From Massilia frigida (GTDB lineage: Bacteria; Pseudomonadota; Gammaproteobacteria; Burkholderiales; Burkholderiaceae_D), in the NCBI RefSeq assembly GCF_011682175.1, contig NZ_WHJG01000010.1, positions 124,001 through 188,000 on the forward strand: a stretch of DNA of 64,000 nt, given 5' to 3'. This document shows positions 12,722-44,864 of the stretch, piece by piece (the stretch's first letter is position 1; each line of letters begins with the position of its first letter). The position numbers were made by a program, and so were the translations under genes. Below the pieces are notes generated by a model. That model did not search any database. It saw nothing but the letters and a program-made list of their open reading frames with translations, and was not told the origin of the DNA.

Positions 12722-12860
12722 AAAGGTCCAGGAAAAGATGCTGCGCGGCGCAACAGCGCCGCCGTACATGCGATTTAGATTTTTCCGTATGGTACTTCAC
12801 AGCCCTGTGCCGGGTCCATCAAAGTGTTAGCATTGTGGCATTAAAGTGACACGCGGCGAA

Positions 12861-15116: not shown

Positions 15117-15157
15117 GGCGGTGCCGATGCGTGGACACGGCGTGCCCACGTGGACAA

Positions 15158-15622
15158 TCAGGTGGCGTAAGGGTCGGGGTAGCCGAGCGCCGCCAGGATG
15201 TCGCGTTCGAGCTGCTCCATCTCGGCCGCTTCCTCGTCGTCGTCGTGGTCGTAGCCCTGCGCGTGCAGCACGCCGTGCACGATCAGGTGCGCGCTGTGCT
15301 CTTCCACGGTTTTCTTTTGTTCGAGCGCTTCTTTTTCAAGCACGTCGGTGCACAGGATGATGTCGGCGCGGGTTGGCTCGTCCTCGGCGATGTCTTCGCC
15401 TTCGTTGTAGGCGAAGGTCAGCACGTTGGTGGCGTAATCCTTGGCGCGGTAATCGCGATTGAGAATGCGGCCTTCCTCGGCGCCGACGAAGCGGATGGTC
15501 AGTTCGGCCGGCGCGAACAGCGCCGCCTGCACCCAGCGCCGCACCTTCGGGCGTGTGATCGATTCTTGCAGGCGGGCGTCGGGATACTGGACCGAGAGGG
15601 AGAGCTTATTTTTTGCGGACAT
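15158..15622 (-). CDS. ybeY: Endoribonuclease YbeY (16S rRNA maturation, quality control)
   Basis: A 154-aa zinc-dependent endoribonuclease involved in 16S rRNA 3' processing and 70S quality control. The zinc-binding signature [16 protein letters not shown] is near residues 110-125. ATG 15622 ([15 protein letters not shown]) is preferred over an upstream start that would add 22 non-conserved residues. The gene overlaps the 3' end of phoH by 17 bp, the normal ybeZ-ybeY coupling. It is followed not by corC but by the unknown paralog pair. Confidence 0.95.
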
Positions 15623-16655
15623 TTTTAGCTGCGGCAGGTTTTGGCAAGGCCACCAGGTCGTCGACCGAGGCGGCGGACTCGTAAGCATCGACGATGCGCG
15701 CCACCAGCGGGTGACGCACCACGTCGGCGCTGGAGAACTGGGTAAAGGCGATCCCGCGCACGTCTTTCAGCACATGCACGGCGTCGCTCAAGCCGCTTTT
15801 TTGCGTCTTGTGCAGGTCGACCTGGGTAACGTCGCCGGTGACCACGGCCTTGCTGCCGAAGCCGATCCGGGTCAGGAACATCTTCATCTGTTCGACCGTG
15901 GTGTTCTGCGCTTCGTCGAGGATCACGAAGGCGTGATTGAGCGTGCGCCCGCGCATGTAGGCCAGCGGGGCGATCTCGATCACCTGTTTTTCGAACATCT
16001 TCTGGGTGCGGTCGAAACCGAGCAGGTCGTACAGCGCGTCGTACAGGGGGCGCAGGTAGGGATCGATCTTCTGGGTCAGGTCGCCCGGCAAAAAGCCGAG
16101 GCGCTCGCCCGCTTCCACCGCGGGGCGGGTCAGGATGATGCGCTTGACGGCGTCGCGTTCGAGCGCATCGACCGCGCAGGCCACCGCCAGGTAGGTCTTG
16201 CCGGTGCCGGCCGGGCCGACGCCAAAGCTGATGTCGTGGTCGAGGATCGAGCGCAGGTACTGGATCTGGTGCGGGGTGCGCCCGCGCAGGTCGTGGCGGC
16301 GGGTTTTCAGCACCGGGCTGTTGATTTCGATATCGGGCAGCGCTTCGGTCGGGGTGCTGTCCGGGCTGTGCTGGCTATGCAGGCCGGAACGCTGTTCGAC
16401 CAGCGCCAGTTGCACTTCCTCGATCGGGACGACTTTGTTGGCGACCTCGTAGAAGCGTTCCAGGATCTGGACCGCGTGCCCGGCGTTATGGCCGCTGACG
16501 ATGAACTTTTCGCCGCGCCGGAAAATGGTCACGTCGAGCGCGGACGAAATCTGGCGCAGGTTCTCGTCGAGCGGCCCGCACAGGTGGGCCAGGCGCGTGT
16601 TGTCGAGCGGTTCGGGGATGAAGTAGTGGGGCTGGATAGGTGTCTTGGTTTTCAA
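15606..16655 (-). CDS. ybeZ: PhoH-family ATPase (YbeZ/PhoL type)
   Basis: A 349-aa PhoH-like P-loop ATPase, thought to work with YbeY in RNA metabolism. Walker A GPAGTGKT is at residues 147-154, and Walker B appears as [11 protein letters not shown]. The N-terminal ~110 residues contain a KH-like region ([15 protein letters not shown]). The start is TTG 16655 overlapping the miaB stop (TTGA), and no strong Shine-Dalgarno is seen, which suggests translational coupling. The miaB-phoH-ybeY order is conserved. Confidence 0.94.
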
Positions 16656-18013
16656 CTGGCGCAGGCTAAAGTGTCACCGCGCGCAACGAGTTCGCCGCGC
16701 AGGGTGTAGTTAAAACTCTCGGTGATGCGCACGTCGGCCATCTGGCCGATCAGCGCGCTCGCATTGATGCCGGGTTCGAAATTGACGACCCGGTTGTTTT
16801 CGGTACGGCCCTGCAGTTCGGCGGCATTCTTGACGGACGGGCCTTCGACCAGGATGCGCTGCACGCTGCCGACCATGGCGGCGCTGTACTTGCGCGTGTT
16901 GGCGTCGATCGCCGCCTGCAACTGCTGCAGGCGCGCCAGCTTGACCTCGTGCGCTGTGTCGTCGGCCAGGTTGGCGGCCGGGGTGCCGGGACGCTTGCTG
17001 AAGATGAAGCTGTAGCTGGTGTCGAAACCGACGTCCGCGATCAGCTTCATCATGGCGTCGAAGTCGGCCTGGGTCTCGCCGGGGAAGCCGACGATGAAGT
17101 CGGACGAAATCGACATGTTCGGGCGCACCGCGCGGATGCGGCGGATGATCGACTTGTATTCGAGGCCGGTGTAGCCGCGCTTCATGGCGGCGAGGACATT
17201 GTCGGCGCCATGCTGGGCCGGCAGGTACAGGTGGTCGACCAGCTGCGGGATCTTGGCGTAGGCGTCGATCAGGCGCTGGGTGAATTCCTTCGGGTGGCTG
17301 GTGACGAAGCGGATCCGTTCGATGCCGGGAATGTCAGCCACGTATTCGAGCAGCAGGGCGAAGTCGGCGATCTCGCCGCCTTCCATCACGCCGCGGAAGG
17401 CGTTCACGTTCTGGCCGAGCAGGGTGATTTCTTTTACGCCCTGGGCGGCCAGGCCCGCCACTTCGGTGAGCACGTCCTCGAAGCGGCGCGAGACTTCCTC
17501 GCCGCGCGTGTAGGGCACCACGCAGTAGCTGCAATATTTGCTGCAGCCTTCCATGATCGAGACGAACGCCGAGGCGCCGTCGACCTTGGCCGGCGGCAGG
17601 TGGTCGAATTTTTCGATTTCGGGGAAGCTGATGTCGACCTGGGCGTCGCCGCTCGCGCGCCGTTCGCGCATCATCTGCGGCAGGCGGTGCAGCGTTTGCG
17701 GGCCGAACACCATGTCGACATACGGCGCGCGCTTGACGATGGCGGCGCCTTCCTGCGAGGCAACACAGCCGCCGACGCCGATCAGCAGGTCGGGCCGGGC
17801 CAGTTTCAGTTCGCGCAGGCGGCCGAGGTCGGAAAAGACTTTTTCTTGCGCTTTTTCACGGACCGAGCAGGTATTGAGCAAAATCACATCGGCGTCTTCC
17901 GGCGTGTCGGTGCGGATCAGGCCGTCGGAAGCGCCGAGCACGTCCGCCATCTTGTCCGAGTCGTACTCGTTCATTTGGCAACCGAAGGTTTTGATGAAGA
18001 CTTTTTTCTGCAT
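16652..18013 (-). CDS. miaB: tRNA-2-methylthio-N6-dimethylallyladenosine synthase
   Basis: A radical-SAM methylthiotransferase that adds the 2-methylthio group to i6A37 of tRNAs. ATG 18013 gives 453 aa starting [20 protein letters not shown]. The three UPF0004-domain cysteines are visible ([25 protein letters not shown]). The radical-SAM cluster is in [17 protein letters not shown], and a TRAM domain closes the protein. The upstream in-frame extension of 40 codons is rejected as not family-like. Its substrate is made by MiaA, encoded at 44.9 kb in this window. Confidence 0.96.
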
Positions 18014-18620
18014 GGAATGATCAACGTGGCGCTGCTGCCTGGTTTCAGGCGGGGTTGCCAGTTTATCGTAAATCAGCGGGGGCGGCCATGTCCACGACAG
18101 CGGACCCTGTCCGGCCCGCTTCATTGCACGCAATCAAGGGTTGAGCTAGCCACCCGTCACTCTTGCATATCGCAGGGAAAAGTTTCGCACAATAATCTTT
18201 CACAATTGCTTAATTGCACACTACCTATTTCTTCTTGTAAATCAATGAGTTCCGGCAGTATTCTCACAAGGAACTGAGCACACGAAAAGTTCTTGCGTGC
18301 GCCACCATTTATCTCCCTGTGTTGAAATGACTATGTGACAAGCTTTCCGGCGGATACCTTGATTTCAAACAATGTCACCCATGCGCGAGTAAGTTGTACT
18401 AAAGGCTTATGAGTCTCATAATTAGTTTGCATTTCAAGTGCGTTGGAAGTGAGTAGCGCAGAGCGCATACGATCCGGGAACGTGCTTTTAAGCCAGTTAT
18501 CAGATTTGTTCTGTTTAATCACGCTCAAGGGCGATTTTTCCGGGAACTTTATTAAGACACGTATGGTCTTTAACATAGTTCGTAACGGCATTATTTCAAC
18601 CACTCACCACGAGGTAAATC
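18014..18620. other. AT-rich intergenic region, about 600 bp
   Basis: This gap between miaB and the small HTH gene is clearly lower in GC than its surroundings. It has no reading frame with coding-like third-position bias. A weak 90-codon frame on the minus strand (18331-18603) lacks recognisable features. The region ends with an AGGTAAATC ribosome binding site for the HTH gene. It probably holds that gene's promoter and regulatory DNA. I see no RNA gene or convincing palindrome here. Confidence 0.5.
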
Positions 18621-18962
18621 ATGGCACACCATGCTCTGGCATCACAGGAAAGTTATAATCCCAACCACCTGCTCGACATTCTGCTTGGCAAGATGCAGCT
18701 GAAAAACGATGCAGCGCTGTCGCGCATGCTCGAAGTCGCGCCACCGGTCATCAGCAAGATCCGCCACCACCGCCTGCCGGTTGGCGCCTCGCTCCTGATC
18801 CGCATGCACGAGGTGACCGGCATGAGCATTCGCGACCTGCGCGACCTGATGGGCGACCGCCGCACCAAGTATCGCCTGTCGGACGCCCAGGGCCGTCCCA
18901 AAGCGGCCGAGGAAAAAGGCACGCCACCAGACGCAGCGACGTCCGGTAACTATGCGCACTAA
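18621..18962 (+). CDS. Small helix-turn-helix protein
   Basis: A 113-aa protein whose residues ~15-75 look like an XRE/Cro-type helix-turn-helix: LKNDAALSRMLEVAPPVISK (first helices and turn), then a basic RHHRLPVGASLLIRMHE helix and SIRDLRDLMGD. The C-terminal tail is polar and Lys/Ala-rich. A GAGGT site lies nine bases before ATG 18621. It stands alone after an AT-rich upstream region. A DNA-binding regulator is likely, but targets are unknown. Confidence 0.8.
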   Translation: MAHHALASQESYNPNHLLDILLGKMQLKNDAALSRMLEVAPPVISKIRHHRLPVGASLLIRMHEVTGMSIRDLRDLMGDRRTKYRLSDAQGRPKAAEEKGTPPDAATSGNYAH

Positions 18963-19020
18963 GTTCTCCGGCATGGCGGTGTCCGCTGTCATGCCAGCGG
19001 AACGGGGCGCCTGATTGGCG

Positions 19021-19036
19021 CCTCTGCACGCAGAGG
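19021..19036. terminator. Short hairpin between converging genes
   Basis: CCTCTGC and GCAGAGG form a perfect 7-bp stem with a 2-base loop, just after a GGCGCC-N5-GGCGCC pair. The position, between the 3' ends of the HTH gene and the HDOD gene, suggests a role in transcription termination, but there is no T-tract. Confidence 0.35.
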
Positions 19037-19044
19037 CGGGTCGG

Positions 19045-19887
19045 TCAGCCCATCAGGATCATCGTGATTTCCTCGTACTGCAGTTCGGTTTCGCGGAACA
19101 CTTGCAGGTAGCATTCTTCGTTCAGTCCCAAGGCGGTCCAGGCGACCGGCGACACGGCTGGCACCAGATCGTTTTCTTCGCGCCCCAGGTCGAGCGCATG
19201 CACGATGGCGTTGGCCACATGCACGATGGTGGCCAGCAGCCCCGCATCCGGGGCGCCCGGATCATGATGGAAGGCGATCGCCATCTTCATCGTATCCGAA
19301 AAATTCCAGTGCTCGGCCAGCGCCACGCCGGCCAGCACATGGTCCACTCCCAATATGGCCAGCTCCGCATCCTGCACGTAGGTGTCGTTGGCGGCGCGGT
19401 ATTCCATCACCTGCTGATATAAATCCGGATAGCTGCTCACCAGCACCAGGCGCCCGATATCGTGCAGCAGCCCGGCGGTGAAGGCGTAATCCTGGTTGAA
19501 GCGCACGCGCCGCGCCAGCACCTTGGCGCAGGCGGCGGTGGCGATCGAGTGGCGCCAGAAGGCCTTGTGGTCGAAGGCGGGGCAGCGGCCCTCGGCGAAG
19601 CAGCCGGTCAGGGCCGAGGCCGTGATCAGGTTGCGCGTGGTCTGGAAGCCGAGATAGGTGATCGCTTGCTGGATGGTGGTCACCCGGACCTGCAAGCCGT
19701 ACAGCGAGGAATTGGCCAGGCGCAGGGTCTTGGCCGTGAGGGCCTGGTCGTGCGAGACTTTCTTGGCCAGCACCGCGATGTCGATGTCTTCCTGGTCGAT
19801 GCTGGTGAGCAGTTCCATGACCACGGCCGGCAGCGAGGGCAGGTCGGCCAGGCGCCGCAGCACGTCGTCGAGCACGATGGCGCTCAT
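19045..19887 (-). CDS. HDOD-domain protein
   Basis: A 280-aa protein made mainly of an HDOD domain, the catalytically inactive relative of HD phosphohydrolases found in signalling proteins. The family pattern LPSLPAVVMELLTSIDQEDI, KVSHDQALTAKTLRLANS and AITYLGFQTTRNLITA occupies residues ~15-95. HDIGRLVLVSS is the helix that carries the HD in active relatives. ATG 19887 overlaps the stop of the upstream small gene (ATGA), so the two are translationally coupled. A role in c-di-GMP-type or chemotaxis-like signalling is inferred only from the family. Confidence 0.9.
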   Translation of the reverse strand: MSAIVLDDVLRRLADLPSLPAVVMELLTSIDQEDIDIAVLAKKVSHDQALTAKTLRLANSSLYGLQVRVTTIQQAITYLGFQTTRNLITASALTGCFAEGRCPAFDHKAFWRHSIATAACAKVLARRVRFNQDYAFTAGLLHDIGRLVLVSSYPDLYQQVMEYRAANDTYVQDAELAILGVDHVLAGVALAEHWNFSDTMKMAIAFHHDPGAPDAGLLATIVHVANAIVHALDLGREENDLVPAVSPVAWTALGLNEECYLQVFRETELQYEEITMILMG

Positions 19888-35627: not shown

Positions 35628-35641
35628 AAGGCAAATCGTTA

Positions 35642-35672
35642 TTTGCCGTGTTCGTGGTGGGATAGGTGGACT
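35642..35672. other. Putative left attachment site (attL)
   Basis: TTTGCC-N-TGTT..TGGTGG and the exact 12-mer GATAGGTGGACT (35661-35672) match the 3' end of the tRNA-Met gene and its flank at 44734-44765, with one base missing within the copy. This is the expected scar of site-specific integration at the tRNA 3' end. Confidence 0.75.
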
Positions 35673-36272
35673 CGGATTGTGGCCTGTAAGCCGCACTGGC
35701 ACTCACTCTCGCATATTCCAGCACGGTTTCTGCCCCTAAATCTGCCCCCAAATATTCTTTCTTAACCCTTGTGTGGAGAACTTGATTTTACCAAAATCAA
35801 ATGCCCCGGATCAGGGCACTTCTCCCATGGCGGCAGACTAATTTTTCGCCTGCCATTTGCTGAATCCTTTGAAATAGGGGAAAAGTTCTGCGCGTGAGGG
35901 AACTAGGGGTGTCCAGGGAAAATCACCCCAGACTTTCGACCCGCCCCCTCGCGTACGCGCGCGCACAACGCTGCTGGTTGCCGGCCAGGGGATCGAGAAC
36001 CCCGATTCGGGGGCCTGGCGTTTTGTGGGTTAGCGTTAAATTCGAGGGAGAGCGCGGTCCTGTTCTGCGTGGCCGTGCAGAGTTTCGATGCCCCCACTCT
36101 GGGTCTGATTCTGGCGGCAGGTGCCGTTCCAGAAAAATATTCTCAATTCGCGGTTGTGCGCATCGAGGGTCGGAGCGGTCCTGTGTGGGTGACCTTCCGC
36201 CAGTCTCGACGCCCCCCCTCTGGCAAGGGTTGGATTCTAAGTCTGACCCTCTGCGCACCTGGCGCCGGACGC
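35673..36272. other. Gene-free left end of the integrated element
   Basis: About 600 bp with no convincing gene. It contains two TGCCCC(C/T)AAA sites (35731-35740 and 35743-35752), an exact TTGATTTT-ACC-AAAATCAA hairpin (35782-35800), and two diverged copies of a ~110-bp unit starting at about 36045 and 36166. The units share GCGGTCCTGT, a TCGA/TGCCCCCC block and a CTCTGG...GATTCT stretch. The region may be the distal att half-site plus debris of lost genes. Confidence 0.5.
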
Positions 36273-36300
36273 AAAAAGGCCCAGCGTGTGAGGCTGGGCC
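36273..36300 (-). terminator. Intrinsic terminator after capsid gene
   Basis: On the minus strand GGCCCAGC (36300-36293), a short loop and GCTGGGCC (36285-36278) are followed by a U5 run. It ends the capsid transcript about 90 bp after the stop codon. Confidence 0.9.
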
Positions 36301-36386
36301 AGTCCTGCATCAGCCGCAAGGATGACGTCCTGCAGGTCTCATGGTTTGTCGTGCGGGCCACTCATGAGTTACGCCCTGCTGCCACG

Positions 36387-37559
36387 TTATGGGAGGAACA
36401 CGCCCTTGATCAGCACTTCAGGACGGTTGACGGTCAGAGCCAAACGCTCTTCGGCCAGGATCGCCAACAGGTTGCGGGTGAAGTAGTCCGCATGTTGGGT
36501 AGCGATTTCGACAGTGGCCTGCTGGCGGTCGTACAGCCGTGCAGCGCGGGCGAAGTCCCCTACCATGAACTCTGTTTCCCCCATCACGTCGGTGACCACG
36601 ACAGGCACACGCCACACGCTGGCGCGGCCGTTGTCATCGGTCACGTTGTACGAGAACTGGTAGCGGCCTTCCTTATCCTTGTCCAGCTCGAGGCGCTCCA
36701 GGCCGATCGGATTGATGACGATGCCAGTGGCCACGCCCCGCGCCAGCTGCACCTGGGTGATTGCACGGCGCAGTGTGTCGCTTGGGGTGTCACCAGTAAC
36801 GTGACGAATGTAGCCTGTCGCCACAGTCCACATGCCCATGATGTTGGCGCCGGTGCCGGTGCCTTTCAGGAGTTGAGCATCCTCGGCAAGTTGGAGAGCA
36901 TCGCGCAGCTCAGTGTCGATGTAGTCGGCCAGCATCACTTCATCATCGAGAGCCTGGCGCGAGGCTGGGATCCATACCGCGATGGTGCGGACGGGCGCGG
37001 ACTCGAGCGCGATGTTCAGGCCGATTTCCGATTTGGTGTCACCTTCGACTACTTGGACCGCTGCGGCGCCAGTGCGAACACCCTTGAGGTATTCGATGCT
37101 GGCCGCTGTGGTCGGTCGGGTAATCAGCAGGTCACGAACGGCAGTGCGGCGCCCCATGGTTCCATAAATCTCGGTGTCACGTGCGGCCTGGACGCGCACC
37201 GCGCTACTGGTCACGGTTGCCTTCTGACCCAGCTCGAATCCCTTAACGGAGATGCGCAGGTTCTTGATCGAACTATCGCGCAGCATACTCAGGCCGTCGC
37301 TCTTGAGTACGAGAGAGCTTACCGATGGGGTGCCGCTATCCTCACCGCCTTGGCGTCGCGCGCCCTTCTGCTCAAGCTCCATGATTTGGGCGCTCGTCTC
37401 TTGTTTGAATTCCTTGAGCTCGGCGGCGGTTGCGTCGATGCGTGCGTTTGCCGACTTGGTCAGCTCGGTGATGGCCTGGGCCACGTCGCCGGCGCCGCCG
37501 TGCTGGTCGCCGTAGGATTTGGTCAGCAGGGGCGTGGTGGTGGTGTTCTGAGTTTTCAT
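36387..37559 (-). CDS. HK97-family phage major capsid protein
   Basis: A 390-aa HK97-fold capsid protein. The N-terminal ~110 residues are a polar, predicted coiled-coil delta region (AQAITELTKSANARIDATAA, ELKEFKQETSAQIMELEQ), normally removed by the prohead protease. The rest shows the fold's hallmarks: LESAPVRTIAVWIPASRQAL, LADYIDTELRDALQLAEDAQ and LLKGTGTGANIMGM. Its ATG overlaps the protease stop (ATGA). It is the last gene of the element, followed by a terminator. No portal or terminase gene is seen next to it. Confidence 0.93.
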   Translation of the reverse strand: MKTQNTTTTPLLTKSYGDQHGGAGDVAQAITELTKSANARIDATAAELKEFKQETSAQIMELEQKGARRQGGEDSGTPSVSSLVLKSDGLSMLRDSSIKNLRISVKGFELGQKATVTSSAVRVQAARDTEIYGTMGRRTAVRDLLITRPTTAASIEYLKGVRTGAAAVQVVEGDTKSEIGLNIALESAPVRTIAVWIPASRQALDDEVMLADYIDTELRDALQLAEDAQLLKGTGTGANIMGMWTVATGYIRHVTGDTPSDTLRRAITQVQLARGVATGIVINPIGLERLELDKDKEGRYQFSYNVTDDNGRASVWRVPVVVTDVMGETEFMVGDFARAARLYDRQQATVEIATQHADYFTRNLLAILAEERLALTVNRPEVLIKGVFLP

Positions 37560-38206
37560 TGGGATGCTTTCGTAAATTGTTGAGTGGCGGCTTTGAGTGC
37601 CGCGATGATTTCGTTCGATGGGTCGGGCTCGCCAGACAGGGAAAATCCCTTGGCGGCGATGTGCCGTGCTTCGCTTCGTGAGAACCCGATTTGCTCCATT
37701 GCCTTTTCAAAGGCTCGGAGTGTGGTCGGCTTGATCCCTGCTGCTTTCACTTCGCTGATCCGGGCCGACGAATCGGCAGGCACGGATACCACTGAGATTT
37801 CCGCCAGGTCGATAGCGGTCAGGACGTTGACCCCTTCTCGCATCTTGGCGCCACCTTTGACGACCCGGTAGCCGATGCTCAGGCCCGTGATATCGCCAGC
37901 ACGAAGGTGCTCAAAAGCTTGCTGGCCGGCAGTCGTCTTGAGGTTGATCTGTCCGGTTACCAGAAGCCCGCGTGAGTCCTCGGATATTTCGACCCATCGC
38001 CCGATTGGCGTGTCGGCTTTGTGCGCCCACAGCATGACTGGGGCGGTGCCATGGGCGCGGTGGTGTGCCAGTGAGGCGCCGAAAGCGCCCTTGGCAACTT
38101 GGTCCCCGTACGAGTCGATACCGCCGAAAACGGAGGCGTAACCTGTGACGATTCCTTCGGCCTGCGAGCGTACTTCCAGGAGTGGTAGAGAGTGAGATAG
38201 CGACAT
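37556..38206 (-). CDS. HK97-family prohead protease
   Basis: A 216-aa prohead serine protease of the HK97/U35 type. Features are GYASVFGGIDSYGDQVAKGA, HKADTPIGRWVEI with the likely catalytic His, and ITGLSIGYRVVKGG with the likely catalytic Ser. It processes the capsid delta domain during prohead maturation. It is translationally coupled to the capsid gene. A 145-bp gap without features separates it from the upstream small ORF. Confidence 0.93.
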   Translation of the reverse strand: MSLSHSLPLLEVRSQAEGIVTGYASVFGGIDSYGDQVAKGAFGASLAHHRAHGTAPVMLWAHKADTPIGRWVEISEDSRGLLVTGQINLKTTAGQQAFEHLRAGDITGLSIGYRVVKGGAKMREGVNVLTAIDLAEISVVSVPADSSARISEVKAAGIKPTTLRAFEKAMEQIGFSRSEARHIAAKGFSLSGEPDPSNEIIAALKAATQQFTKASQ

Positions 38207-38351
38207 TATGTGGATCCTTTAGTCCGAGCGAAATTGAACACCGTTGAAGGTGTCGATTTGACTTCGGCAGGCATCCCGCGCTGCTGTTGAAGTGGACCGG
38301 GCTTGCATCCCGCAAGCTCGATCACTGACCGTAAGTTTACGTTACTCCTGA

Positions 38352-38645
38352 TCAATTCGCAACTCCGGTGACACCATTTCCGATGGTTTGCACGGTCGCC
38401 AGGGTGCGATGCGTTCCTTCGCGCTCGACAGCAACCAGGCTGATCTGGTTAGAGCCGTGGCGGTCGATCGTGATTTCGATGCCGACGCGCCCGCCACCGG
38501 CCAGCAAGCGGTTAAGACCCTCCTGCTTTTCCAGGCCAAGGTCGACCATGAGGGTGTGCATCAACGTGCCGGATGCGCGGACCAATGCGGCGCACTGGGC
38601 GGACAGGTCGGCGGCGTTTGCGGCGGGGATAAACTTGTCAGTCAT
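38352..38645 (-). CDS. Small satellite/phage protein, unknown
   Basis: A 97-aa protein overlapping the preceding gene by 8 bp. The N-terminal half is helical (AANAADLSAQCAALVRASGT, LMHTLMVDLGLEKQEGL). The C-terminal half looks beta-rich (RVGIEITIDRHGSNQISLVA). No family is recognised. The position between replication and head genes is typical of small connector or regulatory ORFs in satellites, but nothing in the sequence assigns a role. Confidence 0.65.
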   Translation of the reverse strand: MTDKFIPAANAADLSAQCAALVRASGTLMHTLMVDLGLEKQEGLNRLLAGGGRVGIEITIDRHGSNQISLVAVEREGTHRTLATVQTIGNGVTGVAN

Positions 38646-39105
38646 TTTGTGCTTTCAGTAGGGTGGATGCGTTCAGGGTGCGCAGCTCGGCGCGGAACCA
38701 TTCGATTGCTGTGGGGATGCTTGCCAGGCTTTGGGAAGCGGCGACGGCGTGTAGGCGCTGCTTGGCCTCTTGGCTGACCTGGGCGCTGTCGCAGTACGTC
38801 GCAATCAACGTGTTCAATTCAGCGATCAGGCCCAGCCAGACGGCGGGCGTGCGCGGTTGGACGGAGATTGCCGCCATGGCCTCGGCTTCGGTCCGGGTCA
38901 AGCCGTCAACCTCCATGAACTCGGCCACCAGGTCGATGGCGGAGCTGGCCGACAGGTGCGCCAGCAGCGCCGCCTTGTTAGCCCGGACCTTTGCGGATAC
39001 CGCATTGACGGCTTCGGCCGTGCCGCGAAGCTTGAGGCCATCACCGGCCAGGTGGACGGAAACGCCGACCGCTTTGCAGCTGTCGATCAGTGCTTGCGGG
39101 TTCAT
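38638..39105 (-). CDS. Small protein with TubC-N-like start
   Basis: A 155-aa protein, ATGA-coupled to the primase gene. Residues 1-50 (LIDSCKAVGVSVHLAGDGLK, LRGTAEAVNAVSAKVRANKA, ALLAHL) resemble a TubC N-terminal docking domain, a small fold common in mobile-element proteins. The rest is helical with no motif seen. Its phage role is unknown; association with the replication protein is inferred from coupling. Confidence 0.7.
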   Translation of the reverse strand: MNPQALIDSCKAVGVSVHLAGDGLKLRGTAEAVNAVSAKVRANKAALLAHLSASSAIDLVAEFMEVDGLTRTEAEAMAAISVQPRTPAVWLGLIAELNTLIATYCDSAQVSQEAKQRLHAVAASQSLASIPTAIEWFRAELRTLNASTLLKAQND

Positions 39106-41360
39106 ATCGACACCTCGACGGTGGATTCTTGGTCGGTCGTCGTGTCACAAGAATCCGGACAAGAAACACAAGAAACACACTCAATTTCTGTGGATTCTTG
39201 TGTTTCTTGTGGATTGCCTCTAAGTAATTTCGTGGTCCCGAACGGGTCTTCGGGGTCGGGCTGTTGATCGGTGGTTTCCCGAAGACCGCCACGAAGACCG
39301 CCATTTTTACCGAAGACCGTCACATTATTTGTGTGGCGGTCTTCGGAGTTTTTGGCGGTCTTCGGAAGAAACCATTGCCAACCTTCCTTCATCCCGACCT
39401 TCACCGCCTCGATGCCAAGATCGCGTTTTGCTCGCTCGATCGTGCGCCAGGAGTAACCGGCCCCGGCAGCATCGGCTTTCACCTGCTTGGTCGATATCGG
39501 GCCATCAACCAGCAGATCAGACAGGAATTGTTCTGCATCCGCCTTGCCGCCGCCGTCACCGTTTTCGTCATGCTCGACCTCGCCCAAAATCTCCCGTGCA
39601 GTCCCCTCGATAGTGCCTTCCCATACAGCGTGAGTCGCCTCAATACCGCCATCAATCGTTACCATTGCTAGGCCGTACGACACGCCCCCATCATCCGGAG
39701 CGATGTTCGACTTAGCACGGGCGAGAACACGCCGGCTGCTGTCTTCTTCCTTTGCGGTGACCAACACCATGCGAGCCAGCGCGCCGAACGCCTGGGAGCC
39801 GATTACGCGGTCCTGGGGCGACTTGCCGGCGCCGCCCTTGGCAAAGTGCGTAATGCCGATGACAGCGCAGCTATGAGCCTCTGCGAAGTCCACAACCGCC
39901 TGTAGGCTTCGGCGCACATCGTTGGCGCGGTGCATGTCGCCAGCGACAGCCGACACAATCGGGTCGATGATCAGCAGTGACACCCCGCCAATGCGGTCCA
40001 CGGCCCTGTGCAGCTCCGGGATATCCTGCGACGGATCGAACGGCACGCTCTCGCCGTTGTGAACAATGCCCTCGATGAAGTGACAGCGGTTCAGATCGGC
40101 ACCCGATGCGATCAGGCGGGGCACCAGCGTGTCATCGGCCACATCCTCACTGGACCAGACCAACACATTGCCTTTACGGTGGCACGGGCTACCGTCAGGC
40201 CAGCGCCCGCCAGATGTCAGCACCGCCGCAAGAGCCAATGCAAGCGTGGTCTTGCCGGTGCCGGCCGCACCAGCCAGGATCGTCAGTTTGCCGGCCGGGA
40301 GCCAGCCCGGCCACAACCAGGTGATGGGCAGCGGCTTGATGTCGTTACCACACCGGATTTTCACCACCCGGCTTTCGGGCGGAGCGGTAGGGCGCATGCT
40401 TGGAGGCTGTGCCGGCTGGTGGGCTGGCAATTCGAAGTACACAGCTTTTGAGAGCGCCTCGACTAGCGCTTCGTCGCCCTGGCGCTGGGCCAGGTCGTTG
40501 AAGTCAGTTGGGTTTCCTTCGTCGGATTCGAACTCCGGCACTGCGAGCCAGCCGCCGACCGCGCGCGCTGCGGCCTTGGCTTTCTCCACTCCCACGTTGC
40601 CGACAGTGTTGAACCGGTCGTTGTCAGCGCATAGGATGATCTGGACGCCTGGCAGTTTGCCGCGCAGCGCCAGCGCCACCGCCTCCAGGTTGCCAGCGTT
40701 GAAGGCGACAGCTACCGGATGGCCGAGGGCCGCGAACAGGCTTGCACCTGTGGCGAACCCTTCGCAGACCAGCAGCGTATCGACAGGCTTGCCGCCGAAG
40801 CTGTAATAGCAGCCCTTGACCTTGCCGTGCGACTTGAAGCGCTTGGTGCCGTCCTTGGCGATGAATTGCAGACTGGTGACTGCGCCGCCAGCGTCACGGA
40901 TCGGCACAATCAGGGTGCGCTTGTCCTTGTCCTCTTTCAGCCCGTACGGCTTGATCCCTTTGCGCACGCAATAGGGGTTGTCGTCAGTGGCGTCATGCGC
41001 GCCGGCCAGGATGCGCACGCACGCGGTCGCTGCTTCGGCTTCCAGCTGTAAGCGGGTCAGCTCGGCTTCCTGGCGTGCCTTGTCAATACGCGTCCGGTAT
41101 TCGGCATTCTCTATCGGCGTCATTTTCTGGTCAGACTTACCGCACCACTTCTCCGACAGGTCAGTTTTCCAGTTGCCGAATGCCCCAGCCGGCACACCAT
41201 CGCCGTGCAGGATGTACCAGGCTGATTTATTGCCTTTCTTGTCGTCGGCGGCATCAAAGCGGCGGCGCTTGCCGTCCGCGATGATCTCGGCCGGCGCCAG
41301 GTCGTAGACGGCCATTGCTGCGCCGAACTCGGCCTCGATGTTGGTCATGGTCGCTTGCAT
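39102..41360 (-). CDS. Toprim/RepA-type primase-helicase
   Basis: A 752-aa replication protein. The N-terminal ~150 residues resemble a primase zinc-less leader (DUF3987-like). Residues ~150-290 form a Toprim-type domain (TLLVCEGFATGASLFAALGH, GVQIILCADNDRFN). Residues ~345-560 form a RecA/RepA-like helicase (AAA_25) with Walker A GAAGTGKTTLALAL and Walker B LLIIDPIVSAVA. The C-terminal tail is Thr/Ser/Glu-rich and Cys-containing (CVSCVSCPDSC). It should initiate and unwind element DNA. Two starts (41360 and 41348) are close together. This is the largest gene of the element. Confidence 0.88.
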   Translation of the reverse strand: MQATMTNIEAEFGAAMAVYDLAPAEIIADGKRRRFDAADDKKGNKSAWYILHGDGVPAGAFGNWKTDLSEKWCGKSDQKMTPIENAEYRTRIDKARQEAELTRLQLEAEAATACVRILAGAHDATDDNPYCVRKGIKPYGLKEDKDKRTLIVPIRDAGGAVTSLQFIAKDGTKRFKSHGKVKGCYYSFGGKPVDTLLVCEGFATGASLFAALGHPVAVAFNAGNLEAVALALRGKLPGVQIILCADNDRFNTVGNVGVEKAKAAARAVGGWLAVPEFESDEGNPTDFNDLAQRQGDEALVEALSKAVYFELPAHQPAQPPSMRPTAPPESRVVKIRCGNDIKPLPITWLWPGWLPAGKLTILAGAAGTGKTTLALALAAVLTSGGRWPDGSPCHRKGNVLVWSSEDVADDTLVPRLIASGADLNRCHFIEGIVHNGESVPFDPSQDIPELHRAVDRIGGVSLLIIDPIVSAVAGDMHRANDVRRSLQAVVDFAEAHSCAVIGITHFAKGGAGKSPQDRVIGSQAFGALARMVLVTAKEEDSSRRVLARAKSNIAPDDGGVSYGLAMVTIDGGIEATHAVWEGTIEGTAREILGEVEHDENGDGGGKADAEQFLSDLLVDGPISTKQVKADAAGAGYSWRTIERAKRDLGIEAVKVGMKEGWQWFLPKTAKNSEDRHTNNVTVFGKNGGLRGGLRETTDQQPDPEDPFGTTKLLRGNPQETQESTEIECVSCVSCPDSCDTTTDQESTVEVSI

Positions 41361-41362
41361 TG

Positions 41363-41653
41363 TTACGCCTCCGCCCGTGGTTGGAAGTCTCGACCGTCGA
41401 TCAGGGCGTACGCGTCCATGCCGTAGTGGATGGCTGCGGCGCAGAGAAGCTGCTCACGTCCGCCGCGTCCGGTCTCTTGGAACTGGTCGATGACACGCAA
41501 TACCGACTCGACCGAATGGGCAAGCCACTCCTCGCCGTTCTTGTCAACGAAATAGATCCACGGCTTTTGGTCGCTGTCGCTGTTCAGGCCCAGGTCGCCG
41601 CCAGTGAAGCGGTAAGGGGGCACAGGGAATGTCATCGCAACAGGGGCGTTCAT
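41363..41653 (-). CDS. Small element protein, unknown
   Basis: A 96-aa protein between a 91-aa ORF (ATGA overlap) and the primase gene (2-bp gap). The central part (KPWIYFVDKNGEEWLAHSVE, SVLRVIDQFQETGRGGREQL) is compatible with a small alpha/beta fold. No known motif is seen. Tight packing in the operon and good coding bias support it as a real gene. Confidence 0.65.
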   Translation of the reverse strand: MNAPVAMTFPVPPYRFTGGDLGLNSDSDQKPWIYFVDKNGEEWLAHSVESVLRVIDQFQETGRGGREQLLCAAAIHYGMDAYALIDGRDFQPRAEA

Positions 41654-41925
41654 GCTGCACCGCCGATCTTTGCGACAGCGGCGCGCCAGATAGTCTTGCC
41701 TTCCTCGATACCAGCGAAGTAGGCATCAGCCGCGGCTGTGCCCGCCTGATACGGCATGTCGAAGTTCTTGCGCTCGATGCGGTGCTCAAGCGCCATGCGT
41801 GCGCCGGCCTTGTATTCCTGGCTGCGTGGCGTGCGACCGTTGTAGAACGCGGTTTGAAAAAGCTGCTCGACGGACAGGGTGCCGACGGATGATGGGGAAT
41901 GTTGGGATGTGGTGGTGCCTGGCAT
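41650..41925 (-). CDS. Small element protein, unknown
   Basis: A 91-aa protein beginning MPGTTTSQHSPSSV at ATG 41925. The body FYNGRTPRSQEYKAGARMAL, GTAAADAYFAGIEEGKTIWR resembles small proteins frequent in prophage replication modules, with no assigned function. The same frame is open up to 42213, so a larger protein (187 codons) passing through the C4-like RNA and an ash-like leader is possible. The shorter form is preferred because coding bias begins there. Confidence 0.6.
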   Translation of the reverse strand: MPGTTTSQHSPSSVGTLSVEQLFQTAFYNGRTPRSQEYKAGARMALEHRIERKNFDMPYQAGTAAADAYFAGIEEGKTIWRAAVAKIGGAA

Positions 41926-41975
41926 GGTTGCCTCCGTGTGTGGTGTAGAACCGCACAACCCGCTGTCAAACGGGG

Positions 41976-42053
41976 TGAGCGGCAAATGGCAGGGTTGACA
42001 GACCGGTACACAGGGAAACCGGCAGGCCGAAGCCTCCCCACCATCGCCGCTCA
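41976..42053 (-). ncRNA. C4-like antisense RNA
   Basis: On the minus strand an outer stem TGAGCGGC (42053-42046) pairs with GCCGCTCA (41983-41976). It encloses a 4-bp hairpin with a UUCG loop (AGGC-UUCG-GCCU, 42035-42024) and a CCGGT-N10-ACCGG hairpin (42022-42003). The total of 78 nt matches the C4 antisense RNA of phages P1/P7/N15 and P4-like satellites, and it lies inside an ash-like leader frame downstream of alpA, where C4 is normally found. The call rests on fold, size and context; no covariance model was run. Confidence 0.6.
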
Positions 42054-42209
42054 TAGGAGACGCAATGGTATGGACGAAAAAATACCGCCTTGTGGCGGTC
42101 GTCCGCCGTGTGTAGTTCGAGCTGTCAAACTCGGTCGCTTCTTTTTTCGCGACAGGATCAGCATAGGCCGGCAACGGGTGCTCGGTCAAGTAAATCATGC
42201 TGGCGGCGC

Positions 42210-42440
42210 TCATTTAGTTTCCGCCGTGTAATTCACCGGATCGGCAAAGAAACGGTGCAGCTCACGGTTCTGATACGCGGTGCAGCGCTCCGACAGGCGG
42301 TGAGCTGGGGGCGCTTTGCCTGCAATAACAAGTTGGCGGAATTTCTCGCGGCTGAATGGCGAGAAGGGGGCGATCTGATTCCAGCGGCTCATGCCGTCAA
42401 CTGGAAGGGTCTTGCTAAGTTCTGCGGTCGAATGTGCCAT
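42210..42440 (-). CDS. alpA: AlpA-family transcriptional regulator/excisionase
   Basis: A 76-aa MerR-like HTH protein of the AlpA family, the usual transcriptional activator or excision regulator of P4-type elements. GMSRWNQIAPFSPFSREKFR and QLVIAGKAPPAHRLSERCTA, followed by YQNRELHRFFADP, fit the family. AGGTAGGCAACC precedes ATG 42440. In satellites such as PICIs an AlpA homologue switches on the replication module; here the replication and head genes all lie downstream in the same direction. Confidence 0.85.
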   Translation of the reverse strand: MAHSTAELSKTLPVDGMSRWNQIAPFSPFSREKFRQLVIAGKAPPAHRLSERCTAYQNRELHRFFADPVNYTAETK

Positions 42441-42543
42441 GGTTGCCTACCTTTGCATGTTGCCGCCGTGATTCAGCGGATTGATGCAAAGGTTAGCGAT
42501 TGAAGCTTTGTGAGTCGCGGAGCATTACACGGATTTCCCGGCG

Positions 42544-43350
42544 CTAATCTTCCGGTTGTGCCTTGTTCAGTTTAAGCATTTCCTTTTCGTCATTCCCAAG
42601 TGGAAAAATTTTACCCACCAGATTCGGAGTTATATCCGGGTCGTCAAGCGCCACACTGCAAAAGATTGCAATGCGTGAAGGCGAGTAATCCGCGTACGTG
42701 ATGAAGAAAAAATCTACAATTACTTTGGTGAAATACGTCCGGAAAGTGTTCTTGTCGTTCACTTTCCTCGGTAGCCTTAGTTTGCTCGACTGTCGGACTG
42801 CTTCTTCTATTGCGCTCTTGGAAAGGCGCGTCAATTGCTTGTCAATTGCCGGCAGGTAATATGTCAGGCTAAACGGCGCTAATGCCCGTCTGCGCGAGAG
42901 TATGTCAGGGTGCATCATTAGGCGGGCACGTTCAATCTGTTCGCTATCCAACAACGAGTGCAGAGGAAAAGGGTTGTAACACGCACCCGCATTGCTGAAT
43001 TTGCTCAACTTGCGCGCAAGGGTATCGGCAAGCTTGGCAATCTCGTGCATTTCTTCCTCGTATCCCCTCCGTGTGAACTTTGGGTTTTCCTCGTAATTTC
43101 GCACCGCCCTATTAACGGTAGCTAGCAGCCCGCCATTTGTTCGCAATGTACACATGACTTGATTGTCTAACCCAATAATGAAGCGCCACACAAGTTCCAT
43201 TTCCGTCCTTGTAACGAGCCGTGTCCACATCTCATGAAGGCGCAGAGTAATTGCCGCTTCATTTTCGCTAAGCACGCCGAGTCCCCGATAGTCGCTAAGC
43301 TCGGTAAGGTACTCAATAATCTCTGGTGGTGCCCAGTTAGGAAAGCTCAC
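42544..43350 (-). CDS. Unrecognised 268-aa protein of the element
   Basis: I do not recognise this protein. It is 268 aa, mostly helical and charged, without signal peptide or clear membrane helices. Notable stretches are NWAPPEIIEYLTELSDYRGL, YEENPKFTRRGYEEEMHEIA, HPDILSRRRALAPFSLTYYL and FRTYFTKVIVDFFFITYADY. Base composition is visibly lower in GC than its neighbours, indicating separate acquisition. It overlaps the end of int by 14 bp and precedes alpA by 103 bp, a place where satellites often carry accessory (cargo) genes. Confidence 0.75.
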   Translation of the reverse strand: MSFPNWAPPEIIEYLTELSDYRGLGVLSENEAAITLRLHEMWTRLVTRTEMELVWRFIIGLDNQVMCTLRTNGGLLATVNRAVRNYEENPKFTRRGYEEEMHEIAKLADTLARKLSKFSNAGACYNPFPLHSLLDSEQIERARLMMHPDILSRRRALAPFSLTYYLPAIDKQLTRLSKSAIEEAVRQSSKLRLPRKVNDKNTFRTYFTKVIVDFFFITYADYSPSRIAIFCSVALDDPDITPNLVGKIFPLGNDEKEMLKLNKAQPED

Positions 43351-44581
43351 TTTTAACCCCTGCCACGGCGTCCAGGTAGTCGGCGTACTCCTGCATCATC
43401 ACGCGGCGCTCATCCAGGAACAGCGCCCGGTCGTATGCCTCGCCATATGCATCACCGGAGGCGTGCGAGAGCTGGCGGTCCACAACCTCATGCCGGTAGC
43501 CCAGCCGCTCTTTGATGACCCCCATCGCCAGCGAGCGGAAGCCGTGGCCGGTCATCTTGCCGGCGTAACCCATGCGCTTGAGAGCCGCGAGGATGCCAAA
43601 GTTCGTCGCCGGCTTGGTGTGGTCGCGCATGTTGGGGAACAGGAACTGGTTCCCGCCAGTGATCGTGTGCAGTTCGCGCAGCAGCTCCCAGCCTTGGCGC
43701 GGCAGGAACACATGGTGATTGACCTTGCGCGGGTTGACCTTCTTCTTTCCCATCTTCATGCGGTGCCAGTCGATGACCCATGACTCGTTCACCAGGTCGA
43801 TTTCTGACCACGGCGTCTCGGTCAGCTCACTGGTGCGCACGAAGGTCATCATCATCAGCCGGAACATGACCTTAGTCGGCACGAACATGCGCCCCTCGAT
43901 CTTGGCGAAGGCTTTCAGGAAGTCCGGCAGGTCGTCGGCGGTGATGGCGGCATGGTGGCCGCCCATGGTGGGCTTGAGAGCGCCCCGTAGGCTTGGCACG
44001 GGGTCTGTGTCGGCCTTGCCCGATGCGATGGCGTACCGGAACACCTGGCCGCACACTTGCCCCTGGCGCTTTGCCATGTCGAGAGCGCCACGCTTTTCGA
44101 TCTGCCGCAGAACGTCCAGGATGACCGGAGCCTTGATTTCTGCAATTGGGTGCCGCCCGATCAGCGGGAATACGTCGACTTCCAGCCGGTGAATGATGTT
44201 CGCCGCCGTGCGGGGTTGCCAGGAATCCAGCTTGTTCGCGTGCCACTCGCGCGCCACAGCCTCGAACGTGTTGCTCGCCAGTGTTGCTTTCTGCTGCTTC
44301 TCGATGCGGCGGGCCTGGGCCGGGTCCACGCCGCCGGCCATTTGCTTGCGGGCCGCGTCGCGCTTGTCACGGGCCTCGGCCAGCGACACCTCGTCGTAGG
44401 AACCGAACGACAGGCGACTCTCTTTGCCGTTCGCCTGCTTGAACTTCATGCGCCATAGCTTCACGCCAGTGGGCATCACCTCCAGGTAGAGCCCGCCGCC
44501 GTCAGCAAGCTTGTACGCACGGTCCTTCGCCTTGGCGTTTTTGATGGTTTTGTCAGCGAGAGGTAGAACAATTTTTGGCAT
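43337..44581 (-). CDS. int: P4-type tyrosine integrase
   Basis: A 414-aa tyrosine recombinase. The N-terminal arm-binding domain (DUF4102, YKLADGGGLYLEVMPTGVKL) is followed by a core-binding SAM-like domain and the catalytic domain. The visible residues are R in VRTSELTETPWSEID, HGFR as the His-x-x-Arg, LSHASGD, and Y in YGEAYDRALFLDERR. ATG 44581 (MPKIVLPLADKTIKNAK) is preferred over 44635, whose extra codons read through repeats that look like integrase arm sites. It starts 166 bp from the 3' end of tRNA-Met, the presumed target. Confidence 0.93.
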   Translation of the reverse strand: MPKIVLPLADKTIKNAKAKDRAYKLADGGGLYLEVMPTGVKLWRMKFKQANGKESRLSFGSYDEVSLAEARDKRDAARKQMAGGVDPAQARRIEKQQKATLASNTFEAVAREWHANKLDSWQPRTAANIIHRLEVDVFPLIGRHPIAEIKAPVILDVLRQIEKRGALDMAKRQGQVCGQVFRYAIASGKADTDPVPSLRGALKPTMGGHHAAITADDLPDFLKAFAKIEGRMFVPTKVMFRLMMMTFVRTSELTETPWSEIDLVNESWVIDWHRMKMGKKKVNPRKVNHHVFLPRQGWELLRELHTITGGNQFLFPNMRDHTKPATNFGILAALKRMGYAGKMTGHGFRSLAMGVIKERLGYRHEVVDRQLSHASGDAYGEAYDRALFLDERRVMMQEYADYLDAVAGVKSELS

Positions 44582-44637
44582 TTTGGGGGCATCGCCTTTT
44601 GGGGGCATCGGTTTGGCCCCCAAGACTGCCCCCAAAA
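44581..44637. repeat. Right arm-type repeat cluster
   Basis: TTTTGGGGGCA occurs at 44581-44591 and 44597-44607, TTTGGCCCCCAA at 44612-44623 and TGCCCCCAAAA at 44627-44637. Matching TGCCCC(C/T)AAA units are found at the other end (35731-35752). These are candidate arm-type binding sites of the integrase. Confidence 0.6.
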
Positions 44638-44677
44638 TACATAGGTGTCAATGGGCAAACTTTGGCGCTATAGGCGT

Positions 44678-44710
44678 AAAAAAACCCCTAAGCGTTTGAT
44701 TTCTTAAGGG
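44678..44710 (-). terminator. Terminator downstream of tRNA-Met
   Basis: On the minus strand CCCTTAAG (44710-44703) and CTTAGGGG (44692-44685) pair, followed by U7. A diverged copy is at 35591-35627. Confidence 0.8.
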
Positions 44711-44733
44711 TTTCTTGGCAAACTTGGTCATAC

Positions 44734-44765
44734 TTTGCCATGTTTTTGGTGGTGATAGGTGGACT
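44734..44765. other. Putative right attachment site (attR) over tRNA 3' end
   Basis: The tRNA 3' end with encoded CCA, the acceptor strand and half the T arm carry the 12-mer GATAGGTGGACT (44754-44765), shared with 35661-35672. The element's integrase is adjacent and the tRNA is intact. Confidence 0.75.
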
Positions 44766-44823
44766 TGAACCACCGACCCCAGCATTATGAATGCTGTGCT
44801 CTAACCAACTGAGCTATATCACC
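44747..44823 (-). tRNA. tRNA-Met(CAU), CCA encoded
   Basis: On the minus strand the acceptor stem GGTGATA pairs with TATCACC. The D arm is GCTC-AGTTGGTTA-GAGC, the anticodon stem CAGCA/TGCTG encloses the loop TTCATAA with anticodon CAT, and the T stem GGTGG/CCACC encloses TTCAAGT. The discriminator is A and the CCA is encoded (44749-44747). The CAU anticodon could also belong to tRNA-Ile2 (lysidine), but the overall pattern fits elongator tRNA-Met better. It is the insertion site of the neighbouring element. Confidence 0.9.
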
Positions 44824-44835
44824 CGACAGACCAAG

Positions 44836-44864
44836 ATTATAGAGAACTGCTTTTTGCGTGTCAA
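44836..44864 (-). promoter_or_regulatory. Consensus sigma-70 promoter of the tRNA
   Basis: TTGACA (44864-44859), a 17-base spacer and TATAAT (44841-44836) match consensus exactly. The -10 ends 12 bp before the tRNA, so the tRNA has its own promoter and does not rely on miaA read-through. Confidence 0.9.

Follow-up and report, generated by a model that had tools for sequence, protein, structure and literature searches.

A 64,000-nucleotide stretch of the Massilia frigida genome (the window) carries, on its minus strand and inserted at a tRNA-Met site, a 9,093-bp element (measured core to core) in which the genes for a prohead protease and an HK97-type major capsid protein are followed by DNA that appears to be a tandem array of three cos-like sites, i.e. 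a cis packaging signal present three times. With a probability of about two in three, we take this element to be a cos-packaged satellite resembling the phage-inducible chromosomal islands (PICIs), which would build its own shell and rely on one or another of several helper phages for portal, terminase and tail. An earlier, sequence-only reading had offered two options, a reduced prophage or a satellite with its own capsid; the latter is supported by the layouts of two further copies, one in Massilia aquatica and one elsewhere in the same genome (contig C44), whereas the former finds no support. That reading had also described some 600 bp behind the capsid gene as gene-free; this DNA is where the cos-like array lies. 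Its statement that packaging genes are missing holds for proteins, none being recognised in the ten open reading frames (ORFs), but the packaging signal itself appears to be there in triplicate.

Cos-like sites behind the capsid gene

In most of the phage cos regions that we saw, a run of G residues precedes a TCGAAAGT-like motif; this is followed by a stretch resembling cosN, in many cases with GACCG, and by a box directly next to terS whose sequence varies by phage group. The 706-bp gap at 35681-36386 holds three such cos-like units in tandem and in one orientation, all read on the minus strand. The unit cos1 (type B; 36122-36226), composed of a G-run with GTCGAGACT, AGGACCGC and CACAACCGCGAATTGAGAATATTTTTCTGG, has matches of 31-35 nt located just upstream of TerS; its box is matched in Pantoea phage AH07 (record positions 10-41), Serratia OS31, Klebsiella ST899-OXA48phi17.2 and the prophage L024, and since these matches are individually weak (E 0.006 to 9), it is their position that constitutes the evidence. 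The unit cos2 (type A; 36012-36100), with a G-run and ATCGAAACT, AGGACCGCGCTC and TTTAACGCTAACCCACAAAACGCC, matches terS-abutting prophage DNA, with 92-94% identity over 50 nt in M. rubra (G007) and G009 and 85% over 54 nt in M. eurypsychrophila (G060). The unit cos3 (type C; 35842-35950) comprises a G-run with GTCGAAAGT, a cosN-like stretch, a CCCTCACGCGCAGAA box and then ATGGCAGGCG, the sequence at which TerS of the prophage L026 starts. Its phage and prophage matches are the end of the Bcep176 record, Bordetella phage PHB09, MT835699, L026 and the loci L114 and L115, the last two having been retrieved using the gap DNA itself. A GC-alternating box that goes with type A follows at 35948-35971 (minus strand; 24-nt identity inside the terS of L020). 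In this type-A phage the box lies inside the terS frame, and the satellite has retained it without that frame, which favours the DNA itself as the functional part; similar boxes adjoin the A box in loci of Paucimonas, Polaromonas and Ramlibacter.

The assignment as cos sites rests largely on position. When the gap was compared by blast with 50,697 phage records, 3 records matched at E<=1 and 8 at E<=10; several of these matches are individually weak (E 2e-1 to 9), and the evidence is what they have in common, i.e. their location. In six of the eight records (PHB09, Bcep176, OS31, AH07, Pseudomonas VW-6S and Pseudomonas SC_8, with the SC_8 gene annotated merely as 'terminase') the match lies at most ~135 nt upstream of the annotated small terminase gene, and its orientation relative to TerS is identical in all six. 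A TerS-like start also adjoins the match in the seventh, unannotated record (MT835699); the eighth match, in an endolysin of S-CREM2, looks like chance. Some matches fall at the ends of linear records (Bcep176 at 44803-44851 of 44856; AH07 at 10-41; VW-6S at 21-51), and CGCACGTTCC is present at both ends of the Bcep176 record, as expected of a cohesive end. By a rough binomial estimate, which ignores relatedness among the records, randomly placed matches in a genome of 38 kb would lie no more than 300 bp from TerS in seven out of eight cases with p ~1e-14. Against plasmids, the gap gave no match at E<=0.1.

The same positional preference was seen in prophage loci that had been picked solely by capsid similarity: the best gap match was located at TerS in 8 of 10 loci, compared with a maximum of 4 for 300 random Markov queries and of 2 for 47 other slices of the window. 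The ten loci were taken from 14 capsid-similar places, the omitted four being short loci or having distant capsids (three of them ~30% alike). Moreover, local alignment scores of sites against phage regions were block-diagonal, i.e. 35-44 for cos1 with B phages (<=31 with others), 79-88 for cos2 with A phages (<=37 with others) and 51-74 for cos3 with C phages (<=43 with others), with the sites of a further type, A', in the sister copies going with A' phages; some of the 24 phage regions in this matrix had originally been found with the gap DNA. The best-matching TerS family was phrog_83 for type B (3/3 tested) and phrog_641/18735 for type C (4/4), the one type-A TerS tested belonged to phrog_5601 (with a faint phrog_83 match, E 0.003), and the A' TerS is a divergent relative of phrog_83.

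Several tandem cos types would suit a sponge as well as a packaging signal. An array of this kind could act as a decoy which soaks up the terminases of many phages and shields the host or the resident element, with packaging being secondary, and interference with helpers is described as common among satellites (PMC6739421). We regard this as very improbable, given that a sponge needs neither integrase, primase, capsid and protease nor a single copy per type in packaging orientation near att.

Sister copies and islands in other genera

Relatives of the capsid were sought in 148 related genomes. Apart from a remnant of 29 residues in the own genome, a close relative (99%) was found solely in Massilia aquatica CCM 8693 (G016), all others being at most 41% alike. 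The M. aquatica copy (L018) occupies the same tRNA, keeps the gene order except for the slot of the 268-aa ORF and has its att cores 9,629 bp apart. It ends at the capsid gene and a cos array, and it thus represents the recurring, capsid-terminated block that the sequence-only reading had proposed to look for in relatives; in both intact copies the capsid gene is followed by cos sites and then att. The capsid genes of the two copies differ at 14 bases, which change 12 codons synonymously and 2 nonsynonymously, and the protease genes at 3 synonymous and 2 nonsynonymous codons, which makes constraint on the protease less clear. As a separate observation, in the M. aquatica locus the chromosomal flank is separated from the distal att by ~0.9 kb (L018:7570-8437), which contains a 232-aa ORF and has no blast counterpart in the window.

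A third copy is present in the own genome on contig C44 (82649-101678; L179, L019), where it adjoins a tRNA-Leu and has an integrase 40% identical to that of the window element. The 187-aa, 96-aa and primase genes are all matched there, the 155-aa, 97-aa and protease genes in part, and their order is unchanged. Its protease-capsid part is broken by a cargo cluster (~90.1-100.6 kb) with a VgrG-type protein (PF05954, PF22178), after which come 27 residues of the capsid end, a four-site cos array and a second copy of the 3' end of tRNA-Leu. None of the three copies has a recognised gene for portal, terminase or a capsid-linked tail (for C44, by tblastn and ORF list).

The arrays read B-A-C in the window, B-A'-A in M. 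aquatica and B-A'-A-C on C44. Type A' also occurs in prophages, at three loci in G009, at one in G060 and, less alike, at one in G008. In an alignment, cos2 of the window consists of the left half of the A' unit and the right half of the A unit, joined at the common AGGACCGCGCTC, and the B-A-C array looks derived from the four-site form by deletion between two cosN repeats. Among phages, two contigs of 5.7-5.8 kb from M. eurypsychrophila (L027 and L028; G060:C49 and C50) carry similar capsid-to-terminase modules with cos types A' and A, respectively, an apparent exchange of cos and TerS between related phages.

These layouts bear on whether the element might be a prophage reduced by deletion, with capsid and protease as leftovers and the cos stretches as recombination debris at terS. 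The protease-capsid order is indeed phage-typical, the region between HNH and terS is generally known as a recombination site, the C44 copy is truly broken by inserted cargo, and with 3 synonymous against 2 nonsynonymous codon changes the constraint on the protease is unclear. Since the layout recurs in M. aquatica and in the own genome and the ends are exact, with an empty site in five congeners, we nevertheless consider such a deletion extremely improbable, the least credible of the alternatives weighed here. The layout is the same in a second species and also in combination with a different integrase and tRNA, the capsid shows few nonsynonymous changes, the sites differ in type but have one common orientation, and similar arrays accompany capsids of another lineage in two further genera. 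Relatives with terminase, portal and tail genes right after this capsid and with the same att, which the sequence-only reading had named as decisive for a deleted prophage, were not found in the 148 genomes, where the sole close capsid is that of the M. aquatica satellite. Among 44 places with PF05065 capsids in these genomes, 37 have a PF04860 portal within 6 kb on the same contig (one on the opposite strand); the remaining 7 are two satellites, the contig-edge place in G034, the places with long frames in G106, G044 and G017, which may use other portal families, and that in G093. An autonomous or deleted HK97-type prophage was also rejected as a candidate because no portal, terminase or tail genes or their remains were recognised beside the capsid gene.

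For arrays in other genera, a collection of 84,980 species was scanned for 16 bases of the A box, which gave 33 loci, many of them plainly chance. With weak cross-matches between A and A' set aside, more than one cos type was present only in M. aquatica (L134), Polaromonas (L143) and Ramlibacter (L124); array frequencies cannot be inferred from these numbers, because the A site served as the search bait. In IMG/VR, 0 of the 22 loci with this 16-mer had multi-type arrays. Polaromonas sp. AER18D-145 and Ramlibacter aurantiacus AW1 have tandem A-C sites near an HK97 capsid gene (124 and 122 bits, respectively), in islands with a tRNA, an integrase and replication-type genes (primase-like, AAA_25). 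A 17-bp att repeat delimits a span of ~8.9 kb in Polaromonas; in Ramlibacter, a distal att was looked for and not found. The two islands differ from the Massilia type in that no protease was found: the Polaromonas genome has no match to the S78 protease and none to the PF04860 portal, and the Ramlibacter genome has no S78 match over cut-off and one portal, on a different contig. The Ramlibacter array is flanked by helicase and capsid genes, and genes matching tail-fibre-like and structural-protein PHROGs families follow 3' of the capsid gene (L333:14146-15982), so that this island is not capsid-only. Their capsids are 52% alike and show no blastp likeness to the Massilia capsid (E>0.05); it therefore seems that a capsid was combined with several cos types on more than one occasion. 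In 399 genomes, 23 places had relatives of the Polaromonas capsid, one of them close (60%, with internal stops) and none with the cos types described here in the examined flanks, and among 16 pattern stretches in IMG/VR none encoded a relative of the Massilia capsid.

Taken together, the balance tips slightly towards a broader view, in which a kind of satellite present in three Burkholderiales genera, whose two capsid lineages show no likeness to each other by blastp, would combine a self-made shell protein with a modular array of cos sites like those of unrelated phage groups. Its helper range would be set by swappable DNA signals rather than by proteins, with sites gained and lost by recombination at cosN. 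Another locus, from a Paucimonas metagenome-assembled genome (G080; L082/L137), has a single type-A cos with the GC-alternating box; a C4 RNA, a tRNA-Leu and a relative of the 187-aa ORF lie nearby. It is possibly another satellite; in the profile list of the 148 genomes, G080 has no PF05065 capsid.

Ends and genes of the element

The element is a genuine integrated unit with defined ends. The att core GATAGGTGGACT starts at 35661 and at 44754, which gives the spacing of 9,093 bp. The distal att (35641-35672, from alignment; exact 12-bp core at 35661-35672) is a displaced tRNA-Met 3' end with neighbouring DNA, and the proximal att (44734-44765) has its core inside the 3' end of the tRNA-Met gene (44747-44823). 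The ends are exact, because in five congeners (G002, G007, G009, G012 and G014) the left flank, i.e. window DNA up to 35672, joins the tRNA directly at an uninterrupted site; the 17 loci compared comprised these 5 empty ones, 2 occupied ones (own and G016) and 10 without a match to the left flank. The GC content of the element is 59%, compared with 66% in the flanks, and integrase, own replication gene and exact att, as in a small integrated element, are all three present.

All genes lie on the minus strand, in the order integrase, 268-aa ORF, 76-aa ORF, C4 RNA with 187-aa ORF, 96-aa ORF, primase-helicase, 155-aa ORF, 97-aa ORF, protease and capsid. The ORF list thereby bears out the order, coordinates and strand given in the sequence-only reading, and profile matches agree with the identities it had proposed for integrase, primase-helicase, protease and capsid. 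The tyrosine integrase (43337-44635) matches PF22022, PF13356 and PF00589, and the 752-aa primase-helicase (39102-41360) has Toprim_3 and AAA_25 domains. The 216-aa HK97-family prohead protease (37556-38206) matches PF04586 with 106 bits and also TIGR01543; the 390-aa HK97-type major capsid protein (36387-37559) matches PF05065 with 145 bits and TIGR01554, and its residues 27-388 align to the HK97 prohead protein, including the delta-domain part (PDB 3qpr, E 2e-49). The C4 antisense RNA (RF01695; 41971-42058), which had been recognised from the letters, scores 66.7 bits (gathering score 45) and also occurs in the M. aquatica copy (L018), on C44 (L179) and C221 (L180) and in L082. Likewise, the terminator noted 3' of the capsid gene is visible as a terminator-like hairpin with a T-run (36272-36300). 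The proposed alpA gene was not confirmed: the 76-aa ORF in this position (42210-42440) has no Pfam match at E<=1 and none in PHROGs or NCBIfam.

Together with the 76-aa ORF, six of the ten ORFs have no family above cut-off. The 268-aa ORF (42544-43350) gave no match when compared with the M. aquatica copy by tblastn; at 41650-42213, an ORF region of up to 187 aa (ORF list, tblastn), with a shorter internal start possible, overlaps the C4 RNA; the 155-aa protein (38638-39105) has a weak TubC_N-like N-terminus below cut-off, and the 97-aa protein (38352-38645) has no family match, both having relatives in L018 and partial ones on C44. The 96-aa protein (41363-41653) is a marker common to the C44 satellite and a capsid-forming island on contig C221, and in the 148 genomes it occurs only in the own genome (G000, 3 places) and in G016. 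The slot after the integrase varies, with the 268-aa ORF here, a 255-aa ORF at C44:84108-84875 and, in M. aquatica, no tblastn match to the 268-aa ORF; this position is likely a slot for accessory genes. None of the ten ORFs matched terminase, portal, connector or tail families in Pfam, PHROGs or NCBIfam, and no PF04860 portal was found on the contig of the element. The unassigned ORFs, the largest being 268 aa, are shorter than a portal or large terminase usually is; for TerS, HNH and connector families, which likewise gave no match, the six small unassigned ORFs could be diverged versions.

The C221 island (11517-19350; L076, L180) resembles capsid-forming PICIs, with capsid, protease, portal, TerS and TerL. 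As in the window element, the C4 RNA is present, and both the 96-aa and the 187-aa ORF have relatives in the island; the genome thus contains three related satellites.

Predicted helper use and comparison with known systems

If the element is a satellite, a helper would trigger its excision, and its own primase-helicase would replicate it. An HK97-type shell would be built from two satellite genes, those for prohead protease and major capsid protein. The HK97 shell protein and protease suffice for proheads in E. coli without a portal, and so two genes can make a shell. TerS and TerL of the active helper would then cut the satellite concatemer at the matching cos site, the DNA would be loaded via the helper portal, and the particle would be completed with a helper tail. 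With the array orientated as it is near att, the terminase may be expected to package circular or concatemeric DNA through att and the integrase gene towards the capsid gene. Arithmetically, a length of 9.1 kb would fit once into a small shell or ~4x into a full head of 37-45 kb. Over time, site repertoires would turn over as arrays gain and lose units. Helper induction, cutting of each site by the matching terminase, acceptance of the helper portal and the use of several helpers are all inferred from the sequence.

Several points weigh against this reading. The satellite capsid might not accept unrelated portals. Among the prophages of the own genome, none was found whose cos type matches: the one on C173 carries another type, as does its relative in M. 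aquatica, and those on C189 and C214 end within TerL at the contig edge, with cos outside the available sequence. The site cos1 is the least similar of the three and rests on short weak matches (31-35 nt), and the C site on C44 is weak (scores of 21-39 with C phages and <=28 with others). Two of the 10 prophage loci did not pass the test of TerS position, in which some of the TerS starts had been judged by eye. The limits of the cos sites and of the 24 phage regions in the score matrix were drawn by hand after inspection. In IMG/VR, a pattern for tandem B-to-A sites had 0 matches, and one for A' and a following site had a sole match (L207), which was rejected as a phage terS without array.

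A different role for the capsid would be that it mixes with the capsid protein of the helper and redirects it to small heads, starving the helper in the manner of the SaPIbov5 protein Ccm, with the cos array still serving several helpers. Ccm is described as a capsid homologue that redirects the helper head, forming pentamers together with hexamers of the helper protein (PMC8569155), and as blocking cos phages (PMC5052747). Also in line with this idea, no portal gene was recognised in the window element either, no S78 protease scored over cut-off in the Polaromonas and Ramlibacter genomes, and a genome of 9.1 kb would suit a small head. Still, the element has its own protease, with none identified in SaPIbov5; its capsid aligns including the delta part, whereas the delta domain of Ccm is described as shorter; and it is only ~35-39% identical to Massilia prophage capsids. 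On this evidence a Ccm-like mode of action seems unlikely, if clearly less so than a decoy, and we retain the satellite with its own shell as the preferred reading.

Parts of this picture have precedents in the published accounts consulted. Capsid homologues are reported for EcCICFT073 and PmCI172, the latter making small heads, and two cos sites for EcCICFT073 and SaPIbov4 (PMC6092414), with the reason for two different sites in some PICIs being posed as an open question (PMC6092414, PMC6739421). Together with Ccm, these precedents qualify the suggestion in the sequence-only reading that a capsid without portal and terminase would in itself be a distinct variant; the multi-site array, which that reading had missed, is the more unusual trait. 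These sources thus already document satellites with two cos sites, as well as capsid homologues encoded by satellites; new would be the array of three or four types together with the capsid-protease pair. A search of open-licence literature gave no account of any satellite in which three or four cos sites belong to different phage groups. Such arrays suggest an answer to the question of two cos sites that is testable site by site. The host range of satellites, which should be limited by their helpers, would be broadened by the use of several of them (PMC8628076). If our interpretation is true, helper range is set by swappable packaging signals and not by proteins, and the cos array provides a DNA signature for finding more satellites, perhaps also helpers, from sequence alone.

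With P4 satellites, the element has in common an integrase, a primase-helicase, a C4-type RNA and, as predicted here, cos packaging by a helper terminase; unlike P4, it has its own HK97 capsid and several cos types, and no match to Sid, Psu or Delta families was obtained with its ten ORFs, six of which are small and without family. The cos-type Staphylococcus aureus pathogenicity islands (SaPIs) with Ccm, SaPIbov4 and SaPIbov5, similarly have a phage-like cos and an HK97-fold capsid homologue and are described as mobilized by cos phages, with two putative cos sites in SaPIbov4 (PMC6092414). SaPIbov5 differs in having no identified protease (PMC8569155) and a cos described as that of phages which share basically one cos site (PMC5052747), in contrast to the protease and the three phage-group types found here. 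EcCICFT073 is alike in its two cos sites, reportedly both functional, and its putative capsid gene (PMC6092414, PMC6739421). Its sites are described as having lambda- and phi80-like cosQ and cosN but no phage cosB, with cos1 recognised via Rpp-TerS, whereas the sites in the window each carry a type-specific box, and no Rpp was recognised in the element, in which six small ORFs are without assignment. Finally, capsid-forming PICIs also encode HK97 capsid and protease themselves, and the C221 island of this type has the C4 RNA and the relatives of the 96-aa and 187-aa proteins in common with the element. In the available description, however, they also encode portal, connectors, TerS, TerL and HNH, none of which were recognised in the window element, and need a helper only for tails (PMC10690885). 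The capsid and protease genes would therefore represent a two-gene shell cassette that stands between redirection of the Ccm type and the full equipment of capsid-forming PICIs.

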